DNA of 64,000 bases, from NCBI RefSeq assembly GCF_016757735.1, contig NZ_CP068439.1, positions 620,001 through 684,000 on the forward strand, read 5' to 3'. Numbering within the stretch: the stretch's first letter is position 1; every line of letters begins with the position of its first letter. The notes beneath the pieces were generated by a model. That model was not told the DNA's origin and searched no databases. It saw only the letters and a list, made by a program, of their open reading frames with translations. The position numbers were made by a program, and so were the translations under genes. Positions 36,998 to 46,461 of this stretch are shown here, piece by piece. The stretch comes from Aequorivita iocasae. GTDB taxonomy: Bacteria > Bacteroidota > Bacteroidia > Flavobacteriales > Flavobacteriaceae.

Positions 36998-37633
36998 CTA
37001 TATTTTCTCGAAAATTAAAATATCGGTTCCACTGCCTCCTCCGCTTATATCGCGAAGTTCTATTCTGTTAGGGGTTATACTTATAATGTCCCAATCATCG
37101 TTAAACTCATCAAAAGGAATTCCATTGAAGTTTAAGGTCAATTCATATCCAGAACTGTTAACGGACCAACTTCCATTATTGGTATTGCTTCCATTGGTTG
37201 CGGTGACTTGGTCGTTAATTTTAAAGTCAACCGTATAGCCATTATAATCTGAAGTTTCATCGTCACCACTATCAATATAACTGGCAACTTTCCAGTTGGA
37301 ACCAATTAGGATATCGCGTATTATTTGAGCTTCTCCATAATAGCCATCGTCATAATAACCGTCATCGTAATAACCATCGTCATAATAGCCGTCGTCATAA
37401 TAGCCGTCGTCATAATAGCCATCATCGTAATAGCCATCATCGTAATAGCCATCATCGTAGTAGCCATCATCGTAGTAGCCATCATCATAATAACCATTAT
37501 CATAATAGCCATCATCAAAAAAGTCATCTGAATCGTCGGAGGAGCAAGAAGAGATTATAGCACCCGTTATGGAGATAGTGGATACTGCAAGTAGCGCCTG
37601 TCCCGATTTTTTTATAAAGTTCCTTCGTCTCAT
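36998..37633 (-). CDS. Tat-type lipoprotein with (YYDDG)n repeat
   Basis: 211 residues. The signal MRRRNFIKKSGQALLAVSTI has a twin-arginine-like RRRNF and ends in a lipobox ISSC (Cys near 30), so a Tat-exported lipoprotein is likely. Then comes a stretch of 12 five-residue repeats: one FFDDG, one YYDNG and ten YYDDG. It is very acidic and tyrosine-rich. The C-terminal 110 residues (IIRDILIGSNWKVASYIDSG, then ELTLNFNGIPFDEFNDDWDI) resemble lipocalin-like domains of Bacteroidota lipoproteins. The function is unknown. The Asp/Tyr tract could bind cations or cross-link. Confidence 0.85.
   Translation of the reverse strand: MRRRNFIKKSGQALLAVSTISITGAIISSCSSDDSDDFFDDGYYDNGYYDDGYYDDGYYDDGYYDDGYYDDGYYDDGYYDDGYYDDGYYDDGYYDDGYYGEAQIIRDILIGSNWKVASYIDSGDDETSDYNGYTVDFKINDQVTATNGSNTNNGSWSVNSSGYELTLNFNGIPFDEFNDDWDIISITPNRIELRDISGGGSGTDILIFEKI
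37344..37523. repeat. 15-bp minisatellite, 12 units
   Basis: Twelve tandem 15-bp units of the type CCATCATCGTAATAG (plus strand), differing mainly at third codon positions and encoding YYDDG on the minus strand. The 15-bp period keeps the frame, so gain or loss of units would change only repeat number. All six frames are nearly open across it for the same reason. Confidence 0.95.
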
Positions 37634-37976
37634 ATTATATAATTTTCCTGATTTCTATAAATATAACGAAATATTTATAAGCAGTATATGATTAAAACAA
37701 TTCTATAAGAAAATACCCTACCCTTTATTTCAAAACAAATAATCGGGTTTTTTTATCGATTTGGAATCCACACTGGACATAGCACATCTTAAGTCACTAT
37801 TTTAAAAATAGCAGCAAAATACTATAAGTAAAAATGAATAGACACGAACCGGAGAATTAGTTTGAAAGATTTTCGAAATGTCAGGAGTTGATTAAAATAA
37901 AAATTCTTGAGCCTTTCGCTATTTTACACTTCTAAAATATTTCTTAATCAGTAGTAAAATAAGTCCCATTTTATTG
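37634..37976. other. Intergenic region between pntB and the repeat lipoprotein
   Basis: About 340 bp, very AT-rich, between two minus-strand genes. A weak inverted repeat TAAAAT/ATTTTA near 37949-37967 may end the pnt transcript. I see no -7 box for the lipoprotein, no RNA gene and no coding potential. Confidence 0.4.
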
Positions 37977-39365
37977 TTACAATAACTTCAACTGATTTAC
38001 AATATCTTGAAGCGTTGTTTTTGCATCTCCAAACAATATACTGCAATTATCCATCCCAAATAATTCGTTCTGGACTCCTGCATAGCCTTTATTCATACTT
38101 CTTTTTACCACAATTACTTGTTTCGCTTTATGGGTACGAATAATCGGCATGCCATAAATGGGGCTATTGGGATTGCTTTCGGCGGCGGGGTTTACCACGT
38201 CGTTGGCGCCCAGTACCAACACCGCATCGTATTGTTTCATGTTTTCATTGCTCTCCTCCATTTCCTTTAAACAGGCATAATCCACATTGGCTTCTGCCAA
38301 CAATACGTTCATATGGCCTGGCATTCTTCCTGCAACGGGGTGAATAATGTAATCAATACTAACATTTCTTTTTTCCAATAATTGCTGAAGTTGTGCGCAA
38401 ATATGTTGGGCCTGTGCGACAGCTAGGCCATAACCGGGGACGATGGCCACTTTTTGGACAAAGGATAGTGTTAAGGCTGCTTCCGGTATACTTATTTCCT
38501 TTATTTGCTGATCTTCCTCGATTTGGCCTGTTTTGTTATTTTTAAAAGTTCCGGCCAATACCTTTAAAAGCGAACGGTTCATCGCCCTGCACATCAATAG
38601 CGTAAGAAGAATTCCTGCCGCACCCACAAAAATACCACCCGCAATCATTGCCTTATTTCCATATACAAAACCGGCAAAAGCAGTGGCAATACCTGTAATA
38701 CTATTCAATAAAGAAATAACCACGGGCATATCGGCGCCCCCAATAGGCAGTACGAAAAGCACCCCATACACCATGGCGATGATAGCCAAAATATACATAA
38801 ACGCCATAAAGTCCAAAGGGATAAATCCAAGGAAATATAACGTTGGCAACAGTAAAAGCAACGCCAAAAGTATCCGCGCCGAAAAGATTACGGCCCTACC
38901 GCGTTTATCCTTCACTGTTCCTGCCAATTTCCGCTCGGCAATAATACTACCGGTTAGGGCAATAGCGCCTGTTGTCAATCCGGCGATCAGTAATACCTGA
39001 TTTCCAAAATGTGTAATTTCAGTTTTTATCTGGTTGGCTTCCATCAGTCCTAACAGCATGGCACAACCACCTCCCGTAGCGTTGAAGAGGGAAACCAATT
39101 GGGGCATTCCAGTCATTTGTACCTTATCGGAAAGTCGCTTCCCCAACAATGTTCCCACCGTAATTGCCAATACCATTATAATCAAATTTGTATAAGGAAC
39201 TGTTTCAGTAGTGCCGGCAAAAAAAGTGAGTATCACGGCCAAAACCATACCCAAAGCGGCTATAAGGTTTCCCGTCTTTGCTCGTTTTGGGGAACTCATA
39301 AATTTTAACCCCCCCAAAAAGGAGAGCGTGGCAATTAAATACCCTATTTCAATAATTGCATGCAT
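37977..39365 (-). CDS. pntB: NAD(P) transhydrogenase, beta subunit
   Basis: 462 residues. The first half is a membrane domain (about nine helices, with IGGADMPVVISLLNSITG as the conserved proton-channel segment). The C-terminal dIII domain binds NADP(H): VPGYGLAVAQAQH, HPVAGRMPGHMNVLLAEA and VLGANDVVNPAAESNPNSP. Together with the two alpha subunits it couples hydride transfer from NADH to NADP+ to proton entry at the inner membrane, supplying NADPH. It is 119 bp downstream of the small alpha subunit, with a hairpin-rich gap, and is the last gene of the cluster. Confidence 0.95.
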   Translation of the reverse strand: MHAIIEIGYLIATLSFLGGLKFMSSPKRAKTGNLIAALGMVLAVILTFFAGTTETVPYTNLIIMVLAITVGTLLGKRLSDKVQMTGMPQLVSLFNATGGGCAMLLGLMEANQIKTEITHFGNQVLLIAGLTTGAIALTGSIIAERKLAGTVKDKRGRAVIFSARILLALLLLLPTLYFLGFIPLDFMAFMYILAIIAMVYGVLFVLPIGGADMPVVISLLNSITGIATAFAGFVYGNKAMIAGGIFVGAAGILLTLLMCRAMNRSLLKVLAGTFKNNKTGQIEEDQQIKEISIPEAALTLSFVQKVAIVPGYGLAVAQAQHICAQLQQLLEKRNVSIDYIIHPVAGRMPGHMNVLLAEANVDYACLKEMEESNENMKQYDAVLVLGANDVVNPAAESNPNSPIYGMPIIRTHKAKQVIVVKRSMNKGYAGVQNELFGMDNCSILFGDAKTTLQDIVNQLKLL

Positions 39366-39429
39366 TTTCTACAAAATTTATTTTGAAGTAATATTTTTAA
39401 AAAAATAATAATAAAAAGGAAATTAAGAC

Positions 39430-39478
39430 CTACGACCTTTTTTATAGAGCTTTTTCAAAGGCTTGAAACCCTTTGGTC
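39430..39478. other. Nested inverted repeat in the pntAB-pntB gap
   Basis: CGACC (about 39432-39436) pairs with GGTCG (about 39475-39479), enclosing TTTCAA / TTGAAA. No T run follows on the minus strand. In the middle of an apparent operon it could modulate read-through or protect mRNA ends; this is inference. Confidence 0.4.
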
Positions 39479-39484
39479 GCAAAC

Positions 39485-39781
39485 CTATTTTTTCGGCTTA
39501 AACATTTTTAGCATCCGTCCGGTAACAAAGAAGCCTCCCGAAATATTAAGGGTACCGAGAAAAACCGCAATACCCCCTAACGTAAGGTTGAGGTAATCAT
39601 CCTGTGGCACCCGGAGCATTAAGAGAATTGCTCCAACCAAAATAACGCCGCTAATGGCGTTTGCACCACTCATAAGCGGAGTATGGAGAATGGCCGGCAC
39701 ATTCGCAATTACTTCAATACCGATAAATACACAAAATAAAACAAAGTAAATTTCCTGAAGATGATGGGTTATAAAATCCAT
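39485..39781 (-). CDS. pntAB: NAD(P) transhydrogenase, alpha-2 (membrane) subunit
   Basis: 98 residues, three hydrophobic helices. It matches the small membrane subunit of three-subunit transhydrogenases: IGIEVIANVPAILHTPLMSG and GANAISGVILVGAI. It contributes to the proton channel with PntB. In enterobacteria this part is fused to the soluble alpha domain; the split form here is common in other bacteria. It starts two bases after the alpha-1 stop. Confidence 0.93.
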   Translation of the reverse strand: MDFITHHLQEIYFVLFCVFIGIEVIANVPAILHTPLMSGANAISGVILVGAILLMLRVPQDDYLNLTLGGIAVFLGTLNISGGFFVTGRMLKMFKPKK

Positions 39782-39783
39782 GT

Positions 39784-40917
39784 TTAGGCAGTTTGTAAGT
39801 TTTTGATAAAATGAGGATGCGTCCAGTTGCCCCTTTGCATTAACTTGCAGGCCGAAAGCAATGGATCTTTTGTAGGGTCTTCTGAATTCGCCATATACTT
39901 TAAAAACGCATAGTAATTATTGGAAAGCAGTAGTGAGGCTGCTGTTGGAATTTCTGAAGAAAGATTTGAATGCCCCAGAATGGCAACTCCATTATGGTGC
40001 ACCAATTCCTTATTTTTTGAAAGTTCGCAATTGCCTCCTTGCTCGGCTGCCATATCTATTATAATACTGCCGGGGCGCATGGCTTCCACAGAACGGGTTT
40101 CTATTAATAAGGGAGCCTTTTTACCAGGAATATTTGCAGTGCTGATTACAATATTTGAGGAAAGAATGTGGGTGTGGATCAATTCTTTTTGTTGGTGTTG
40201 ATATTCCTCACTTTGTTCCACGGCATATCCTCCTGCGGTAGCAGATTCGGTGTATCCATCCACTTCAATAAAGGTTGCGCCAAGACTCCGCACTTCTTCC
40301 CCAGCGGACTTCCGCACATCAAAAGCTTCCACTACGGCCCCCAACCTTCGGGCGGTAGCTATGGCCTGTAATCCGGCAACTCCCGCACCCAGAACCAAGA
40401 TTTTTACGGGGGTCAAAGTGCCTGCCGCTGTGGTGAACATTGGGAAAACACCCTTAAACATTTCGGCAGCCTTTAATACGGCTTTATAGCCCGCGAGGGA
40501 AGCCATAGATGAAAGCACATCCATAGACTGCGCCAAAGAGGTTCTTGGCAAGAGGTCGAGACTGTAAACGGTAGCTGCCCGGGCTTGGTAAAGAGCAAGT
40601 GCCGATTTATGAAAGAGGGGGTTAAAAATACCAATGAAACAAACCCCCTCTCTGCTATCCACTTCGCTAAAAGTATGGTTAATGGATATAATAATATCCG
40701 CATTTTTTAAAATAGTTTCCCGGCACTGGCAAATGGCCCCTGCCAGCACATATTCGGCATCCTCAATTTGAAGGGAACTGCCCAGCCCTTGCTCAATAAG
40801 AATATCGAGTTTTAACTCAGAGGTAAGCCGCATTATTTCCTTGGGCAACAAACAAACCCGTGGATCGTCTGGCGTTTTAATGACACCTAATGTTTTGGGC
40901 TGGAGCCGTTCTATCAT
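39784..40917 (-). CDS. pntAA: NAD(P) transhydrogenase, alpha-1 (NAD-binding) subunit
   Basis: 377 residues from the ATG at 40917, which has AAGGAA in good Shine-Dalgarno position; a GTG at 40935 would add six residues and sits two bases after the upstream stop. The dI domain has LGVIKTPDDPRVCLLPKE at the N-terminus and the dinucleotide-binding LVLGAGVAGLQAIATARRLG, followed by IIDMAAEQGGNCE. It binds NAD(H) in the cytoplasm and docks on the membrane subunits. It resembles alanine dehydrogenase but belongs here by context. Confidence 0.93.
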   Translation of the reverse strand: MIERLQPKTLGVIKTPDDPRVCLLPKEIMRLTSELKLDILIEQGLGSSLQIEDAEYVLAGAICQCRETILKNADIIISINHTFSEVDSREGVCFIGIFNPLFHKSALALYQARAATVYSLDLLPRTSLAQSMDVLSSMASLAGYKAVLKAAEMFKGVFPMFTTAAGTLTPVKILVLGAGVAGLQAIATARRLGAVVEAFDVRKSAGEEVRSLGATFIEVDGYTESATAGGYAVEQSEEYQHQQKELIHTHILSSNIVISTANIPGKKAPLLIETRSVEAMRPGSIIIDMAAEQGGNCELSKNKELVHHNGVAILGHSNLSSEIPTAASLLLSNNYYAFLKYMANSEDPTKDPLLSACKLMQRGNWTHPHFIKNLQTA

Positions 40918-40937
40918 ATCGTTTTCCTTGATCACTT

Positions 40938-41318
40938 CTATCTTCTTAAAAGATTGAAATATTCTTCCTTGATCTTGCGGTATTTTTCTACATGCGCCAT
41001 ATAGATTTTTCTGAATTTTTCATGTTCATTTACATAAAACATATCACAATCCATATCATCGCACTCCATTGCCTTGGGAAGACCGTCTTTGTATTTCCTG
41101 AAATTCTTTAGGATAATATTGTTTTCTTCCCGCTTAATAGAAAGCTTGGCCACTACCGGTTGTTGCTCCAATTTATTAGAAAGCTCGACTTGTCTTAGAT
41201 TCAGCAGGTTGTCTATTTCGCTAAAAATATAGCCAAGATGAGTGATCCAGTTGTTCAGTTCAATAAGGTTGTTTTTCAAAACTATTGATTCCTGACTGTC
41301 ATGATTGTAAATTTGCAT
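40938..41318 (-). CDS. Conserved-looking 126-residue helical protein, unknown
   Basis: 126 residues, no signal or membrane segment. It is predicted to be helical throughout, with heptad-like stretches (IVLKNNLIELNNWITHLGYI and EKFRKIYMAHVEKYRKIKEE) and an acidic/Cys motif MECDDMDCDMF in the middle. I do not recognise a family. It lies two bases before the GTG of the transhydrogenase alpha-1 subunit and 37 bp behind the Rnk/GreA-like gene. The tight spacing suggests a function linked to the transhydrogenase or glutamate dehydrogenase. Confidence 0.75.
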   Translation of the reverse strand: MQIYNHDSQESIVLKNNLIELNNWITHLGYIFSEIDNLLNLRQVELSNKLEQQPVVAKLSIKREENNIILKNFRKYKDGLPKAMECDDMDCDMFYVNEHEKFRKIYMAHVEKYRKIKEEYFNLLRR

Positions 41319-41355
41319 ATCTATTTAATTTCTCTATTCTCTATCCTCCCTTCTT

Positions 41356-41772
41356 CTATAGCACCACATCAATATCTATGAGTCTTTCCGTTTGTGTCAC
41401 TTTCACAATGATAAGTTCCTTTTTGCCATTTGGAAAATTCCAGATTACTGAATCTCCTTCGGCATAGCCCATAACAGCGGAGCCCATAGGAGCCAAAATG
41501 GATATTTTATTTGCAGAAATATCTCGGGCCGTAGGAACAACCAATTGGAATTTTGACTGCCATGTTCCCGATGTAACCGAAACCATACTGTTAAATCGAA
41601 TTACATCAGCAGGCATTTGTTCATTATCGTATATAATTGCGCTAGTTAGCTCACCGCTTAATTTTTTTAAGGATGTTTTTGTATTTTCATCTTTGTAATA
41701 GCCGCTTACGTTTAACAGCCGCTTTAAGAAAACATATTCCTTTTTTTCCAATATCAAATTTCCGTATTTCAT
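41356..41772 (-). CDS. GreA/GreB-C-terminal (Rnk-like) protein
   Basis: 138 residues. The C-terminal 80 residues have the GreA/B C-terminal fold seen in Rnk and short Gre-like proteins: VRFNSMVSVTSGTWQSKFQL, ISILAPMGSAVMGYAEGDSV and WNFPNGKKELIIVKV. The N-terminal 55 residues are a short helical region, not the acidic-tip coiled coil of GreA, so cleavage stimulation is unlikely. Rnk-type proteins bind RNA polymerase near the secondary channel. It is 86 bp downstream of gdhA, and that gap holds an inverted repeat (CATCCG/CGGATG). Confidence 0.8.
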   Translation of the reverse strand: MKYGNLILEKKEYVFLKRLLNVSGYYKDENTKTSLKKLSGELTSAIIYDNEQMPADVIRFNSMVSVTSGTWQSKFQLVVPTARDISANKISILAPMGSAVMGYAEGDSVIWNFPNGKKELIIVKVTQTERLIDIDVVL

Positions 41773-41858
41773 GATTGTAAATTTTTAAGATAAAGGAACA
41801 TCCGGGTTAGCGCATAACAGTGATACCAAACATTCGGATGCTCCATTTATCAAAATGT

Positions 41859-43154
41859 TTATGGGAAAATTCCCCTTAAAATATATGCTTTCTCTATACG
41901 TTCAATAGCGATACAGTATGCCGCCGTACGCATATCCATTTCATTCTCTTCAGAATAAGCAATTACCTTCTTGAAAGTGTTTCGAAGTTTTTTCTCAAGT
42001 TTTTCCAGTATCTCGTCCATTTGCCACAACTCCCCGTTACGGTTTTGAAGCCACTCAAAATAACTGCCAATCACCCCGCCGGAATTGCACATTATATCTG
42101 GAATAATAGTGATGCCGCGCTGTAGCAATATTTTTTCGCCTTCCACATCAGTGGGGCCATTGGCTCCTTCGGCTATTAACTTTGCTTTTATTGATTTTGC
42201 ATTGTGAAGGGTAATCTGGTTACCCAATGCTGCGGGAATACAGATGTCGCAGTCCAGTGCAAAGAAGTCTTTTCCTTCTAAAGCAAAAGCCTCGGGGAAA
42301 CCTACAATGCTGCCATTGTTTGCTTTTCCATAGTTGAAAAGATCCTCCACCTTTATCCCCTCTTTGTTTTGAAGACTTCCAAAGGCATCCTGTACGCCTA
42401 CCAATATAGCTCCTTCTTGCTCAAGAAAATGGGCAGTCCAGTACCCCACGTTTCCAAAGCCTTGCACAATATATTTTTTTCCTTCTAGACTTTCGTTGTT
42501 TTTCTCGGCCCAAAATTTAATGGTCAAAAACACCCCATATCCTGTAGCGCGGTCGCGACCTTCCAGTCCACCACTGCCAACGGGTTTGCCCGTAACAACA
42601 TGTTGATTCTTACTACGCTCACTGGTGTTTTTCGTACTCATATACGTATCTGCAATCCACGCCATGGTCTGGTCGTTCGTATTTACATCCGGTGCTGGAA
42701 TATCGTGCTCCGGCCCAATATTCTCACCTAATGCATACGTGAACCGTCGGGTAATACGTTCCAATTCGTTTTTGGAATATTTGGAGGGATCTATCTGGAT
42801 TCCACCTTTTGCACCCCCATAAGGCAAGCCTGCCAATGAGGTTTTCCAAGTCATCCACATGGCCAAGGCGCGTGCGGCGTCTATATCAACCGTAGGGTGG
42901 TAACGAAGTCCGCCTTTATAAGGCCCGAGTGCATTGTTATGCTGTACTCTATAGCCCGTAAATACTTCCACCTCGCCATTATCCATGCGTACGGGAAAAT
43001 TGATTATAATTTCAGTATTGGTAATGCCGAGGATTTTGCGAACGTTGGGGTTCAATTGAATCTGGTCGGCGGCAGTATTGAATTGTTCCAACACATTGTC
43101 CAACATTCCTTTTTTTACAGTTTTGGGTTTTTCCACTGTTTGACCGTTTATCAT
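41859..43154 (-). CDS. Glu/Leu/Phe/Val dehydrogenase, probable glutamate dehydrogenase
   Basis: 431 residues. The active-site region PYGGAKGGIQIDPSKYS contains the catalytic Lys, PAPDVNTNDQTMAWIADTY binds the substrate amino acid, and VQGFGNVGYWTAHFLEQEGA is the dinucleotide-binding loop. It interconverts glutamate and 2-oxoglutarate plus ammonia with NAD(P)(H). It follows the 57-residue Cys-rich gene by 11 bp and would be controlled by the sigma-54 promoter at 43369-43382. With the transhydrogenase downstream, the cluster ties nitrogen assimilation to NADPH supply. Confidence 0.93.
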   Translation of the reverse strand: MINGQTVEKPKTVKKGMLDNVLEQFNTAADQIQLNPNVRKILGITNTEIIINFPVRMDNGEVEVFTGYRVQHNNALGPYKGGLRYHPTVDIDAARALAMWMTWKTSLAGLPYGGAKGGIQIDPSKYSKNELERITRRFTYALGENIGPEHDIPAPDVNTNDQTMAWIADTYMSTKNTSERSKNQHVVTGKPVGSGGLEGRDRATGYGVFLTIKFWAEKNNESLEGKKYIVQGFGNVGYWTAHFLEQEGAILVGVQDAFGSLQNKEGIKVEDLFNYGKANNGSIVGFPEAFALEGKDFFALDCDICIPAALGNQITLHNAKSIKAKLIAEGANGPTDVEGEKILLQRGITIIPDIMCNSGGVIGSYFEWLQNRNGELWQMDEILEKLEKKLRNTFKKVIAYSEENEMDMRTAAYCIAIERIEKAYILRGIFP

Positions 43155-43165
43155 TTTATTTTCTT

Positions 43166-43339
43166 TTAAATTGTTTCGAGCGTTAGCGCTCTTTCCGTGT
43201 TAATGTCTATTGGTTTTGGCTCCTGAAGCGCCATCTCATCAAATTCGCTACAGGAAAACACACTGTTGTGATGATGCGTCAAAATACATGTGGGCAAGTG
43301 CACACAATTTTGGCAGAGGTTTAAGGGATTTGCATTCAT
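43166..43339 (-). CDS. 57-residue Cys-rich protein, unknown
   Basis: 57 residues from the ATG at 43339. The N-terminal half has LCQNCVHLPTCILTHHHNSV followed by FSCSEFDE: four cysteines in the order CxxCx5C...C plus a His cluster, a layout that could hold zinc or an iron-sulfur cluster. The C-terminal half is plain and acidic. Small flavobacterial proteins with this Cys pattern exist, but I know no function. A frame open to 43408 runs through the sigma-54 promoter, so the short form is preferred. First gene of the gdh-pnt cluster. Confidence 0.7.
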   Translation of the reverse strand: MNANPLNLCQNCVHLPTCILTHHHNSVFSCSEFDEMALQEPKPIDINTERALTLETI

Positions 43340-43368
43340 TGATACTTTTTTATTTCCTATTGCAAAAG

Positions 43369-43382
43369 GCAAGCTGTGTGCC
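43369..43382 (-). promoter_or_regulatory. Sigma-54 promoter (-24/-12)
   Basis: The minus strand reads TTGGCACACAGCTTGCC (43384-43368), with GG (-24) and GC (-12) separated by exactly 10 bp, close to the consensus TGGCACG-N4-TTGC. Transcription would start near 43357, some 18 nt before the ATG at 43339. An NtrC-type activator gene lies directly upstream. Confidence 0.72.
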
Positions 43383-43473
43383 AATAGCATAAAAATATCA
43401 ATAACCACAACTCAAATCTTTGATTTATAGTGTTTTAAAAAATGTAAATGAAAAATTTTATTAGAAATCGGTT

Positions 43474-43506
43474 GGGGAATATTTCCCCCATGGGGAGTAA
43501 TTACCC
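43474..43506. promoter_or_regulatory. Tandem dyads, candidate enhancer (UAS)
   Basis: Two related 15-bp dyads, GGGGAATATTTCCCC (43474-43488) and GGGGAGTAATTACCC (43492-43506), fit GGGGAnTAnTTnCCC. Their starts are 18 bp apart. They lie roughly 117-149 bp upstream of the predicted sigma-54 start, the usual distance for NtrC-type activator sites. Confidence 0.6.
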
Positions 43507-43573
43507 TAAATAAAATCGAAATTGAAAGCAAAAACGATGTTCGAGTTTTGAAATACTATTTCCTAATCCCCAT

Positions 43574-44890
43574 CTATTCTTTAATCTTTCCCCGAAGCGT
43601 TTTGCGGTCTATCTGAAGAATTTCCGCAGCTTTTGTTTGGTTATTATTGGTGGCGGCAAGTACTTTTTGGATGTATTTTTTTTCCATTTCCTTCAAGGAA
43701 AGAAGCCCTTCCTCCGGAAAATTGATTTGATATTTTAATACTTCGGGCAAGTCGTTTACCCCAATGGACCGGTCGCACATAATTACCGCCCGCTGGATCA
43801 CGTTTTCAAGTTCCCGAATATTTCCAGGCCATTCGTACCGCAATAATAACGTTTTGGCCTCGGTATCTATCGTGATATATCGGTCTTTATATTCATTACC
43901 ATATTTCAACAGAAATTTATCCGCCAAAAGTGGAATGTCCTCTTTTCGTTCCCGCAGTGGCGGCACGTTTATTTCTACCACCGTCAATCGGTAATAGAGA
44001 TCTTCCCTAAAAGTTTCCTTGGCAATCATTTCGCGGAGATTGCCATTAGTTGCTGCAATGATGCGAACATCTATTTTTTCACCCTTCCGGGCGCCTACCT
44101 TTACCACCTCTTTTTCCTGCAATACGCGCAAAAGCCGAGCCTGTACCGCCAAGGAGGCATTGCCAATTTCATCGAGAAAAACAGTGCCGCCATTTGCCGC
44201 CTGAAAAAATCCCTCCCTGGTGTCATTGGCCCCAGTAAATGCTCCTTTTACATAGCCAAAAAGTTCCGATTCCAAAAGGTTTTCGGGTATACCTCCGCAG
44301 TTTACCGCGATAAAAGGCGCGCTGGAAAACTTACCATTGTAATGGATGGAGCGAGCCACCAGTTCCTTTCCCGTTCCGCTTTCACCACTTATAAAGATTG
44401 TAGCTTTATTGTCCTTTACCCGTTCAATTATTTGGGTCACATTTTTAATGGCTTCGCTGTCACCAATTATTTCGTTGTATTTGCCTTGATGCGATTTTTC
44501 GGGGATAGATTTCCGTTTCCTTTTTGTGGAAAGTGATTTTATAACGGCATTTTTTAATTCATCTTTTGTAAAGGGTTTTACCAAATAATCTACTGCTCCC
44601 GACTTGATTGCCGATAGGGCGTCCTGCACCGATGGATAACCTGTAACCACAAGTTTGGGTATATTTGGATAATGCTCGGAAACAAACTTGATGAGCTGGA
44701 AACCATCAACTTCAGGCATTTTAAGATCGGTTATCAATAAATCTATATCGGTATCGCGAAGGATAGCCACTGCCTCCTTGACCGAAACGGCCTTATAGGT
44801 ATGGTAATCGAGCGCCTGAAGATGCCGCTGGATAAGCTCAAGGATATTAATATCGTCATCAACTATCAGAATGTTTTCCTTTTGCAGCAT
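43574..44890 (-). CDS. Sigma-54-dependent response regulator (NtrC/AtoC type)
   Basis: 438 residues. Receiver domain (1-120) with the phospho-acceptor D55 in LLITDLKMPEVDG. AAA+ domain (about 140-375) with Walker A GESGTGKE, the sigma-54 contact loop ELFGYVKGAFTGAND and Walker B GGTVFLDEIGNASL. The C-terminal Fis-type helix-turn-helix is NNNQTKAAEILQIDRKTLRG. It opens promoters held by sigma-54 RNA polymerase. It overlaps the kinase gene by 32 bp and faces the sigma-54 promoter of the gdh-pnt cluster, its most likely target. Confidence 0.95.
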   Translation of the reverse strand: MLQKENILIVDDDINILELIQRHLQALDYHTYKAVSVKEAVAILRDTDIDLLITDLKMPEVDGFQLIKFVSEHYPNIPKLVVTGYPSVQDALSAIKSGAVDYLVKPFTKDELKNAVIKSLSTKRKRKSIPEKSHQGKYNEIIGDSEAIKNVTQIIERVKDNKATIFISGESGTGKELVARSIHYNGKFSSAPFIAVNCGGIPENLLESELFGYVKGAFTGANDTREGFFQAANGGTVFLDEIGNASLAVQARLLRVLQEKEVVKVGARKGEKIDVRIIAATNGNLREMIAKETFREDLYYRLTVVEINVPPLRERKEDIPLLADKFLLKYGNEYKDRYITIDTEAKTLLLRYEWPGNIRELENVIQRAVIMCDRSIGVNDLPEVLKYQINFPEEGLLSLKEMEKKYIQKVLAATNNNQTKAAEILQIDRKTLRGKIKE

Positions 44891-45986
44891 GGTTTAGTGT
44901 TTTTTTAGGAAAAGTAATAATAAAAACAGCCCCTGTAGGTTGGTTGGCCTTATAATCTATAGTGCCGCCATGGCCTTTTATGATGCCATGGACCACGCTG
45001 AGCCCAAGTCCAGAACCATCCCCTACCGGTTTTGTTGTGAAAAATGGTTGGAATATTTTATTCAAATTTTCAGGGGAGATACCGGGACCCTCGTCTGCTA
45101 TTTTTAAAACAATTTCTTGTCGGTTTTCTTTTAAACTTATGCCAATGGTACCTTCGGCAGGAGAAAAGTATATTGCATTCAACACCAAATTGAATATTAC
45201 CTGCGTAAGCTGAATGGTATCTGCCCGCAGCAGCACCTCGTTTTGGGGAAGGCTGATTTTGTAATGAATATTGTTCTTTTTGAAAGTGGGATCCAATAAG
45301 TTTATGGCATCCCGAATTATAGGCACTATGTTTGCTTCGCTCATATTCTGTGGCATTTCACAAGCAAAAAACATTAGCTTTTTAACCACTTCCCGAGAGA
45401 AGATGGCACTGTTGATAATCTTATCCAGATCCTGAGTGATTTGGGAATTTTCTGGCTGTTTGCTCTTTACCAGTTCGGCAAAACCCAGAATATTGGCAAG
45501 GGGGGTATTGAGCTCGTGGGCAATTCCCGCAGTTATTTCTCCCAATATTCCCAAACGGTCCGCACGTTCCATTTTTCGCTTCATAAAGGCCTCCTTTTCA
45601 CGGATTGCCACCCGTTCCAAAAGATCGCCCACATTGATCGCCACGTTCTTTAACAATTTTTTTTCTTCCTGCAGGAAATCCTGTTTTGTGTATTTATTGG
45701 CCGGGTAATGTATTTTTATAATTCCCTTGGGTTCGTTAAAGATATGAATGTCACTTTTAATGAAAACAGATTTTATGGGTAGCGGGGAAGAAATTAAATG
45801 AAACGGGGACGCACTGATTTCTACACTGGCATATTTGCTAAACTGCAAAGATTTGCGGATGCTCAGGGCAATGGAGAACAGCGTCTTGTCCAGTTCCTTA
45901 TAATCGTTGTTGACGATTATAGACGACACTTCGTAAAGGCAGGTAAGTTCCTTTATGCGTTCCTTAAGATTTTTTTCCAAGGTCAT
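44859..45986 (-). CDS. Cytosolic sensor histidine kinase (NtrB-like)
   Basis: 375 residues from the ATG at 45986. No membrane segment. An N-terminal GAF-like sensor region (about 10-125) is followed by HisKA with H157 in TAGIAHELNTPLANILGF and a complete HATPase domain: NLVLNAIYFSPAEG, DEGPGISPENLNKIFQPFF and GSGLGLSVVHGIIKGHGG. It should phosphorylate the overlapping sigma-54 activator in response to an internal signal. The frame is open to 46064, but a -7 box at 45994-46001 fixes the shorter start. Confidence 0.92.
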   Translation of the reverse strand: MTLEKNLKERIKELTCLYEVSSIIVNNDYKELDKTLFSIALSIRKSLQFSKYASVEISASPFHLISSPLPIKSVFIKSDIHIFNEPKGIIKIHYPANKYTKQDFLQEEKKLLKNVAINVGDLLERVAIREKEAFMKRKMERADRLGILGEITAGIAHELNTPLANILGFAELVKSKQPENSQITQDLDKIINSAIFSREVVKKLMFFACEMPQNMSEANIVPIIRDAINLLDPTFKKNNIHYKISLPQNEVLLRADTIQLTQVIFNLVLNAIYFSPAEGTIGISLKENRQEIVLKIADEGPGISPENLNKIFQPFFTTKPVGDGSGLGLSVVHGIIKGHGGTIDYKANQPTGAVFIITFPKKTLNHAAKGKHSDS

Positions 45987-45993
45987 AACCGCA

Positions 45994-46001
45994 CAAAGGT
46001 A
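45994..46001 (-). promoter_or_regulatory. -7 box TACCTTTG of the kinase-regulator operon
   Basis: Perfect TAnnTTTG on the minus strand, seven bases upstream of the ATG at 45986; a transcript from it would be almost leaderless. Confidence 0.5.
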
Positions 46002-46461
46002 TTGATTAAAAGAAGAATTATAGATGCGGAAAATATAAATTGATGAGCCCCCAAAACTTGCCAAGTTTTCAAAATAGCTCCCTAAAGCAAAAATGAAGCC
46101 TGTACTAAAATAAGCATACAGTTAAAAGAATAAATTCTGATTTTTGACATCCAAAATTGGATTGCAAATTTAAATGCAGCCTAAAAATTAGAAAAGCAGA
46201 AACACTCCAAAACAAAAAAAGCCTCTCCACTTCGGCCTAGTTTATCTTGAGTCTATCGAAGGACTCAGGCAGGCTTCAGGAAAAGCTTCTCATTGGTAAT
46301 CCCAATTTGGAATTTAACCACATCCCGAAAATAAATCCGGGACAACACAACGGGGCAAATTTAGATAAATAATTTAACACTACAATACCCGATGGGAATT
46401 TTGATATTATTTTAAAAAACGTAAATGTAATTACTAAAACTACTAATTGCGAGGACCTGCT

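Follow-up and report, generated by a model that had tools for sequence, protein, structure and literature searches.

A conserved candidate sigma-54 promoter with a paired upstream element beside a kinase/activator pair in Flavobacteriaceae

What controls the genes that lie just behind a two-component pair in Aequorivita iocasae? The pair is found in the window (the whole stretch of 64,000 nucleotides that was analysed, positions 620,001 to 684,000 of contig NZ_CP068439.1). On the minus strand, the kinase gene is followed by the activator gene, a gap of 234 bp, and then genes for a four-cysteine protein, a glutamate dehydrogenase, a GreA/Rnk-like factor, a 126-amino-acid protein, and a transhydrogenase (pntAA, pntAB, and pntB). 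The original prediction was that the gap holds an enhancer-dependent sigma-54 promoter, and that through it the pair co-regulates glutamate dehydrogenase and the transhydrogenase, linking nitrogen assimilation to NADPH supply. The genes are listed below with the source of each assignment.

44859 to 45986, minus strand: histidine kinase, cytosolic, with HisKA and HATPase_c domains (Pfam)
43574 to 44890, minus strand: sigma-54 activating response regulator with a receiver domain, an AAA+ domain with GAFTGA, and a Fis-type HTH (Pfam)
43166 to 43339, minus strand: first operon gene, a 57-amino-acid protein with CxxC-x5-C-x11-C (ORF clustering)
41859 to 43154, minus strand: glutamate dehydrogenase, archaeal-type (Pfam, NCBIfam)
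41356 to 41772, minus strand: GreA/Rnk-like transcription factor (GreA_GreB match)
40938 to 41318, minus strand: 126-amino-acid protein, predicted to form three helices, with an ECxD..CD motif (model of an orthologue, from locus L031)
39784 to 40935, minus strand: transhydrogenase alpha subunit, pntAA, likely starting at the ATG at 40917 (Pfam)
39485 to 39781, minus strand: transhydrogenase pntAB, PNTB_4TM (Pfam)
37977 to 39365, minus strand: transhydrogenase beta subunit, pntB (Pfam)

The regulators and the DNA elements are as originally described. The GAFTGA loop of the activator is intact, and the kinase, whose reading frame overlaps that of the activator by 32 bp, has no strongly hydrophobic stretch of 19 residues (the maximum Kyte-Doolittle mean is 1.33). 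The genome (3.35 Mb in a single contig) contains a single match to the DNA-binding family of sigma-54, or in other words one rpoN. The box and both dyads sit in the 234-bp gap behind the activator:

43470 to 43509, minus strand: putative upstream enhancer element (UAS), two tandem inverted repeats (40-bp motif, conserved spacing)
43506 to 43492: UAS dyad 1, GGGTAATTACTCCCC, in the predicted -149 to -117 region
43488 to 43474: UAS dyad 2, GGGGAAATATTCCCC, in the predicted -149 to -117 region
43369 to 43383, minus strand: predicted sigma-54 promoter (-24/-12), exact match, TGGCACACAGCTTGC

Read on the minus strand from 43383 to 43369, the box has the claimed GG-N10-GC and matches TGGCAC-N5-TTGC exactly. 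If its -12 element is set on 43369, then transcription is predicted to start near 43357, and the two dyads span -149 to -117 relative to this start with a pitch of 18 bp, again as claimed.

The strict pattern TGGYAYN5TTGC has a single match in the window, which is the promoter box. The exact form TGGCACN5TTGC occurs four times in the genome, this box included, and the remaining three matches are inside open reading frames of 340, 321, and 211 amino acids. If up to two mismatches are allowed, however, the window has 59 matches versus 56.9 expected, which is the chance level, so the box alone is little proof. (A general scan of 37800-46100 for promoters and terminators gave counts below the shuffle means for both.) The dyad consensus, GGGNAANTANTCCCC, has just two matches without mismatch in the genome, and these are the two UAS dyads; there are 13 additional sites with one mismatch, as compared to 7 sites for a reversed-pattern control (with at most one mismatch). 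A blind search for the tandem-dyad pattern (at most one mismatch) across 299 genomes of the family returned three matches: the window and two other genomes, G094 and G120. The match in G094 is about 70 bp behind that genome's orthologue of the activator.

Comparison with relatives, which had been proposed as a check, is more telling. We considered the orthologous loci of the best 80 of 310 relatives of the activator, which are 69-97% identical to it (97% in L030, from Aequorivita). In all 80 of these loci, the kinase is upstream of the activator and the activator has GAFTGA. The aspartate motif that we searched for is present in 75 of the 80 activators, and the H-box is present in 80 of the 82 ORFs in the kinase cluster. 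A strict box lies behind the activator and before the next conserved gene in 65 of these best 80 loci, and in 60 of the 80 it is at most 420 bp behind the activator, versus 0.12 expected. Elsewhere in the 1.34 Mb of locus DNA, on both strands, there are only six additional strict matches. The strict box is missing from 15 loci, but 14 of these have a variant that differs by one or two bases and sits 125-128 bp from the UAS. The exception is L092, which has no convincing box (there is a weak candidate 116 bp from the UAS).

To describe the UAS, we tried a palindrome profile with the box as its only anchor, but small differences in spacing smeared it, so we used an iterative search for a 40-bp motif instead. 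The search made no use of symmetry and was seeded with a consensus that was set by hand after loci of the same set had been inspected. The motif was present in all 81 sequences (the 80 loci and the window), with scores of 11.7 to 49.7, as compared to at most 5.0 in shuffled gaps. The distance from the start of the UAS to the box was 124-129 bp in 77 of the 81 sequences, including the window, and 137-138 bp in L059, L064, and L101. Because these 81 sequences had also served to train the motif, we applied it to 30 loci from another search (the best 30 of 72 activator matches), of which 12, the window itself among them, repeat training elements. In the 18 loci whose UAS sequences had not been seen before, the element was always present (scores of 17.8-46.4). 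Its spacing was 125-128 bp in 17 of them and 138 bp in L138; 13 of the 18 had a strict box, and the other 5 had a box with a single changed base. Overall, many related bacteria have kept this layout of promoter and putative enhancer with nearly base-level precision.

Two kinds of exception bear on how the UAS might act. First, the longer spacing in L059, L064, L101, and L138 exceeds the usual one by 10-11 bp, or roughly one helical turn; that this class recurs would fit the prediction of looping. Second, the promoter is 452-1509 bp behind the activator in seven loci (L047, L050, L052, L054, L059, L064, and L075), and yet the UAS is still 126-137 bp from the promoter. As the UAS stays near the promoter even where the activator is far off, its position indicates that it belongs to the promoter and not to the activator gene. 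Also, 34 of the 61 loci that are not from Aequorivita have a terminator-like hairpin between the UAS and the promoter (versus 6 of 61 when each sequence was shuffled once), which would separate the activator's transcript from the operon. Such hairpins are present in 3 of the 20 Aequorivita-type sequences, and the window, which is one of the 20, has none.

Outside of Aequorivita, the consensus of the UAS is near TGGTACATTTTTACYCA-AC-TGGGTAATTTTGTACCA, or two inverted repeats with four half-sites in total. The half-sites of Aequorivita resemble TGGGTAA/TCCCCA, and the pitch of the dyads is 18 bp in the window versus 19 bp in L030, the closest relative. Taken alone, neither dyad showed more covariation within it than shuffles did. 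The outer half-sites do covary about the center of the whole element: among the 61 non-Aequorivita sequences, 691 of 1,098 cells were complementary, while the shuffles had a mean of 614 and a maximum of 648, and three column pairs of the outer half-sites were at a level that 0 of 500 shuffles reached. Since the shuffles ignore relatedness, we view this covariation as supportive rather than as proof.

Both elements are also behind the activator orthologues of L165 and L166. In three more distant loci (L167-L169, with activators of 57-61% identity), a box like AGGCAY-N5-TTTGC is about 109 bp behind the activator, with a weak and partial UAS match (scores of 6.4-13.6) at 103 bp, and the 1.5 kb downstream contains different ORFs.

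The conservation of the box, the UAS, and their spacing strongly supports the geometry of the original prediction, with the adjacent pair in control: the site is very probably a dedicated sigma-54 promoter of the enhancer-dependent type, served by the neighboring kinase and activator.

What would this promoter express? From the four-cysteine gene to pntB, the intergenic gaps are 11, 86, 37, at most 20, 2, and 119 bp. Among the best 80 of 310 loci, glutamate dehydrogenase is present in 75, the GreA/Rnk-like factor (which matches PRK05753 below the cut-off) in 77, and the 126-amino-acid protein in 76. The four-cysteine protein was identified by ORF clustering in 64 of these 80 loci, with the cysteine motif in all 64. 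It has no match in Pfam or NCBIfam and is possibly a metal- or redox-sensing protein. The 126-amino-acid protein also lacks matches in Pfam and NCBIfam, and in relatives it often has a related second copy (110 ORFs across 76 loci). The three-helix model of its orthologue from L031 has a mean pLDDT of 85, and a fold search with this model gave no match at E of 0.001 or better and nothing informative. Across the order, a scan for the protein found it in 12 of 246 genomes and 12 of 74 genera; among the genomes listed, no match came from genus g127.

The 19 Aequorivita-type loci all contain the glutamate dehydrogenase, the GreA/Rnk-like factor, the 126-amino-acid protein, and pntAA-AB-B, and 15 have the four-cysteine protein. 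In the 61 other loci, the corresponding counts are 56 for glutamate dehydrogenase, 58 for the GreA/Rnk-like factor, 57 for the 126-amino-acid protein, and 49 for the four-cysteine protein, and 28 have UspA. The transhydrogenase genes are downstream in 19 of 19 Aequorivita-type loci versus 0 of 61 others within 6.5 kb (four of the 61 loci span less than this, 2.5-5.8 kb). In Pfam, the transhydrogenase exceeds the cut-offs for the N and C domains of PNT, for the 4TM region, and for PNTB; in NCBIfam, it reaches the cut-off for neither PntA nor PntB. By gene content, the core of the operon across the family would be the four-cysteine protein, the archaeal-type glutamate dehydrogenase, the GreA/Rnk-like factor, and the 126-amino-acid helical protein, often with UspA. 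Because of the contrast in pnt, the transhydrogenase is most plausibly something that a single genus, Aequorivita, has added.

Some loci depart from this arrangement. In L048, the pnt genes are upstream. L086, L165, and L166 have different content behind the promoter, with a protein of about 120 amino acids downstream that, by eye, has a signal-peptide-like start. In the window, 36998-37633 (minus strand) encodes a protein that is putatively exported and contains a long DDGYY repeat.

These results bear on the other half of the original prediction. Given these gaps and the presence of pnt in every Aequorivita-type locus, glutamate dehydrogenase and the transhydrogenase are likely co-transcribed in Aequorivita, so that part of the claimed co-regulation probably holds there. 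It does not extend to the other loci over the 6.5 kb examined, which makes the link to NADPH a local supplement rather than the core function. The proposed tie to nitrogen assimilation is weak. An NtrBC-like nitrogen switch that couples ammonium assimilation by glutamate dehydrogenase to NADPH from the transhydrogenase would account for an NtrC-like activator, for glutamate dehydrogenase in 75 of the best 80 loci, and for pnt within the Aequorivita operons, but we consider it unlikely. The activator reaches the cut-off of neither NtrC (TIGR01818, 410 versus 558.6 bits) nor NtrX (314 versus 600). The operon's glutamate dehydrogenase is below every NCBIfam cut-off: its best match is to archaeal GdhA (434 versus 750 bits), and it scores 262 bits for PRK09414 (cut-off 536) and 188 for PRK14031 (cut-off 822). 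In contrast, the canonical NADP-dependent enzyme is encoded elsewhere, near 0.90 Mb (780 bits for PRK09414), and its 3.4-kb locus lacks a strict sigma-54 box. Furthermore, five loci without glutamate dehydrogenase (L067, L086, L092, L107, and L109) all retain the UAS motif, and L067, L086, and L107 retain the strict box as well. The absence of pnt from the 61 other loci also argues against such a switch. Instead, the conserved partners (the GreA/Rnk-like factor, the four-cysteine protein, the helical protein, and UspA) suggest, from gene content alone, a module for energy, redox, or stress rather than for nitrogen supply.

Might some other regulator bind the dyads, or might the box serve another sigma-54 activator? 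The genome does encode three additional activators with PF00158 scores of over 220 bits (two have GSFTGA loops and one has GAFTSA), but none of their examined loci contains a strict box. The UAS and promoter, on the other hand, are behind the orthologue of this activator in all 81 sequences (the promoter in L092 is unclear), in the 18 loci with previously unseen elements, and also in L165 and L166, if not clearly in L167-L169. We therefore think that another regulator is quite improbable. Finally, we give almost no credence to the idea that the resemblance is due to chance and that an ordinary Bacteroidota sigma-A promoter (consensus TAnnTTTG) drives the operon. The loose box search was at chance level, and 23 of 80 relatives have TAnnTTTG somewhere from the activator's stop to 80 bp beyond the promoter. 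But TAnnTTTG, which the original prediction had named in a refuting case, is absent from the 235 bases of the window's gap that were examined, and the box, element, and spacing are all conserved.

An orthologue of the activator (at least 59% identity) was found in 68 of 299 genomes of the family and in 57 of 236 genera. The next-best match was 43% identical, and a 42% match in G143 was left out of this tally. Across 296 genomes of the phylum, seven matched at E of 1e-140, all from the same family, and a genome from the same genus (G254, 99% complete) had no match at E of 1e-100. Scanning the 68 genomes that have the activator with the UAS consensus gave five sites, all of which lie directly behind the activator, and no others. 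Since 68 sites are known and the scan recovers just 5, its sensitivity is low, and it says little about the size of the regulon. The pair seems to be dedicated to a single promoter, but with no match in 63 of the 68 genomes, we rate this as likely only.

The explanation that we prefer begins with the sensor kinase, which would phosphorylate the neighboring activator in the cytosol. Dimers of the activator would then bind the pair of inverted repeats, which spans about -149 to -117, assemble, and, across a loop of DNA, remodel the sigma-54 RNA polymerase that waits at TGGCAC-N5-TTGC. This would start one operon, encoding the four-cysteine protein, the archaeal-type glutamate dehydrogenase, the GreA/Rnk-like factor, and the helical protein, along with the transhydrogenase in Aequorivita. 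The operon's role would be a redox/energy or stress adjustment (of the glutamate/2-oxoglutarate and NAD(P)H balance, with tuning of RNA polymerase) and not general nitrogen control. We put the probability of this account as a whole at roughly 0.88. A broader claim is that Flavobacteriaceae share a single-target, two-component sigma-54 switch for an unrecognised redox/energy-stress operon to which Aequorivita added a transhydrogenase; this is tentative, and we would give it somewhat less than an even chance. If it is true, then the oxidation or reduction of glutamate, the supply of NADPH, and the activity of RNA polymerase are set together, by an operon that comprises a four-cysteine sensor-like protein, a second glutamate dehydrogenase, a Gre/Rnk-like factor that binds RNA polymerase, a helical protein, and UspA.

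The promoter, enhancer, activator, kinase, and target all sit together at one locus, and the activator is present in 57 of the 236 sampled genera, so the system could be tested in one cultivable strain. The set of loci is a trustworthy anchor for the sigma-54 motif of Bacteroidota. The class with longer spacing and the displaced promoters that keep their UAS are natural experiments on the geometry of enhancers, and the operon points to two small, conserved proteins for which no family is known.

In the literature that we surveyed, we found little experimental work on sigma-54 promoters of Bacteroidota. The surveyed titles and openings of abstracts (few of them from subscription papers) did not describe the control of this operon, and an earlier mention is possible. 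PMC12316311 uses position-specific matrices to predict sigma-54 targets in Flavobacteriia. It describes grpE as sigma-54-dependent in Flavobacterium psychrophilum and Bacteroides, cites grpE and groES, and refers to the genome paper of Dokdonia MED134 for a sigma-54 regulon. Its main text mentions glutamate dehydrogenase once, for Bacillota, and transhydrogenase never.

How does this locus compare to known systems? Enhancer-dependent activation at sigma-54 promoters is classical from NtrC-glnA. As in the enterobacterial system, there is a sigma-54 box, a pair of upstream sites for the activator at a distance of about 100-150 bp, and an AAA+ activator, presumably phosphorylated, with GAFTGA and a Fis-type HTH. 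Unlike in that system, the activator is below the NtrC cut-off, the target operon is beside the activator, and the half-sites differ (TGGGKAA/TGGTAC type). The activator also has high full-length similarity to AtoC (416 bits) and ZraR (379 bits) in NCBIfam, and AtoS is the best NCBIfam match for the kinase, but all of these are below the cut-offs. AtoSC and ZraSR have acetoacetate or zinc targets, which were not found beside this pair. Overall, the mechanism is already known, and this locus is a real and well-conserved instance of it that, by the curated cut-off, is not NtrC proper.
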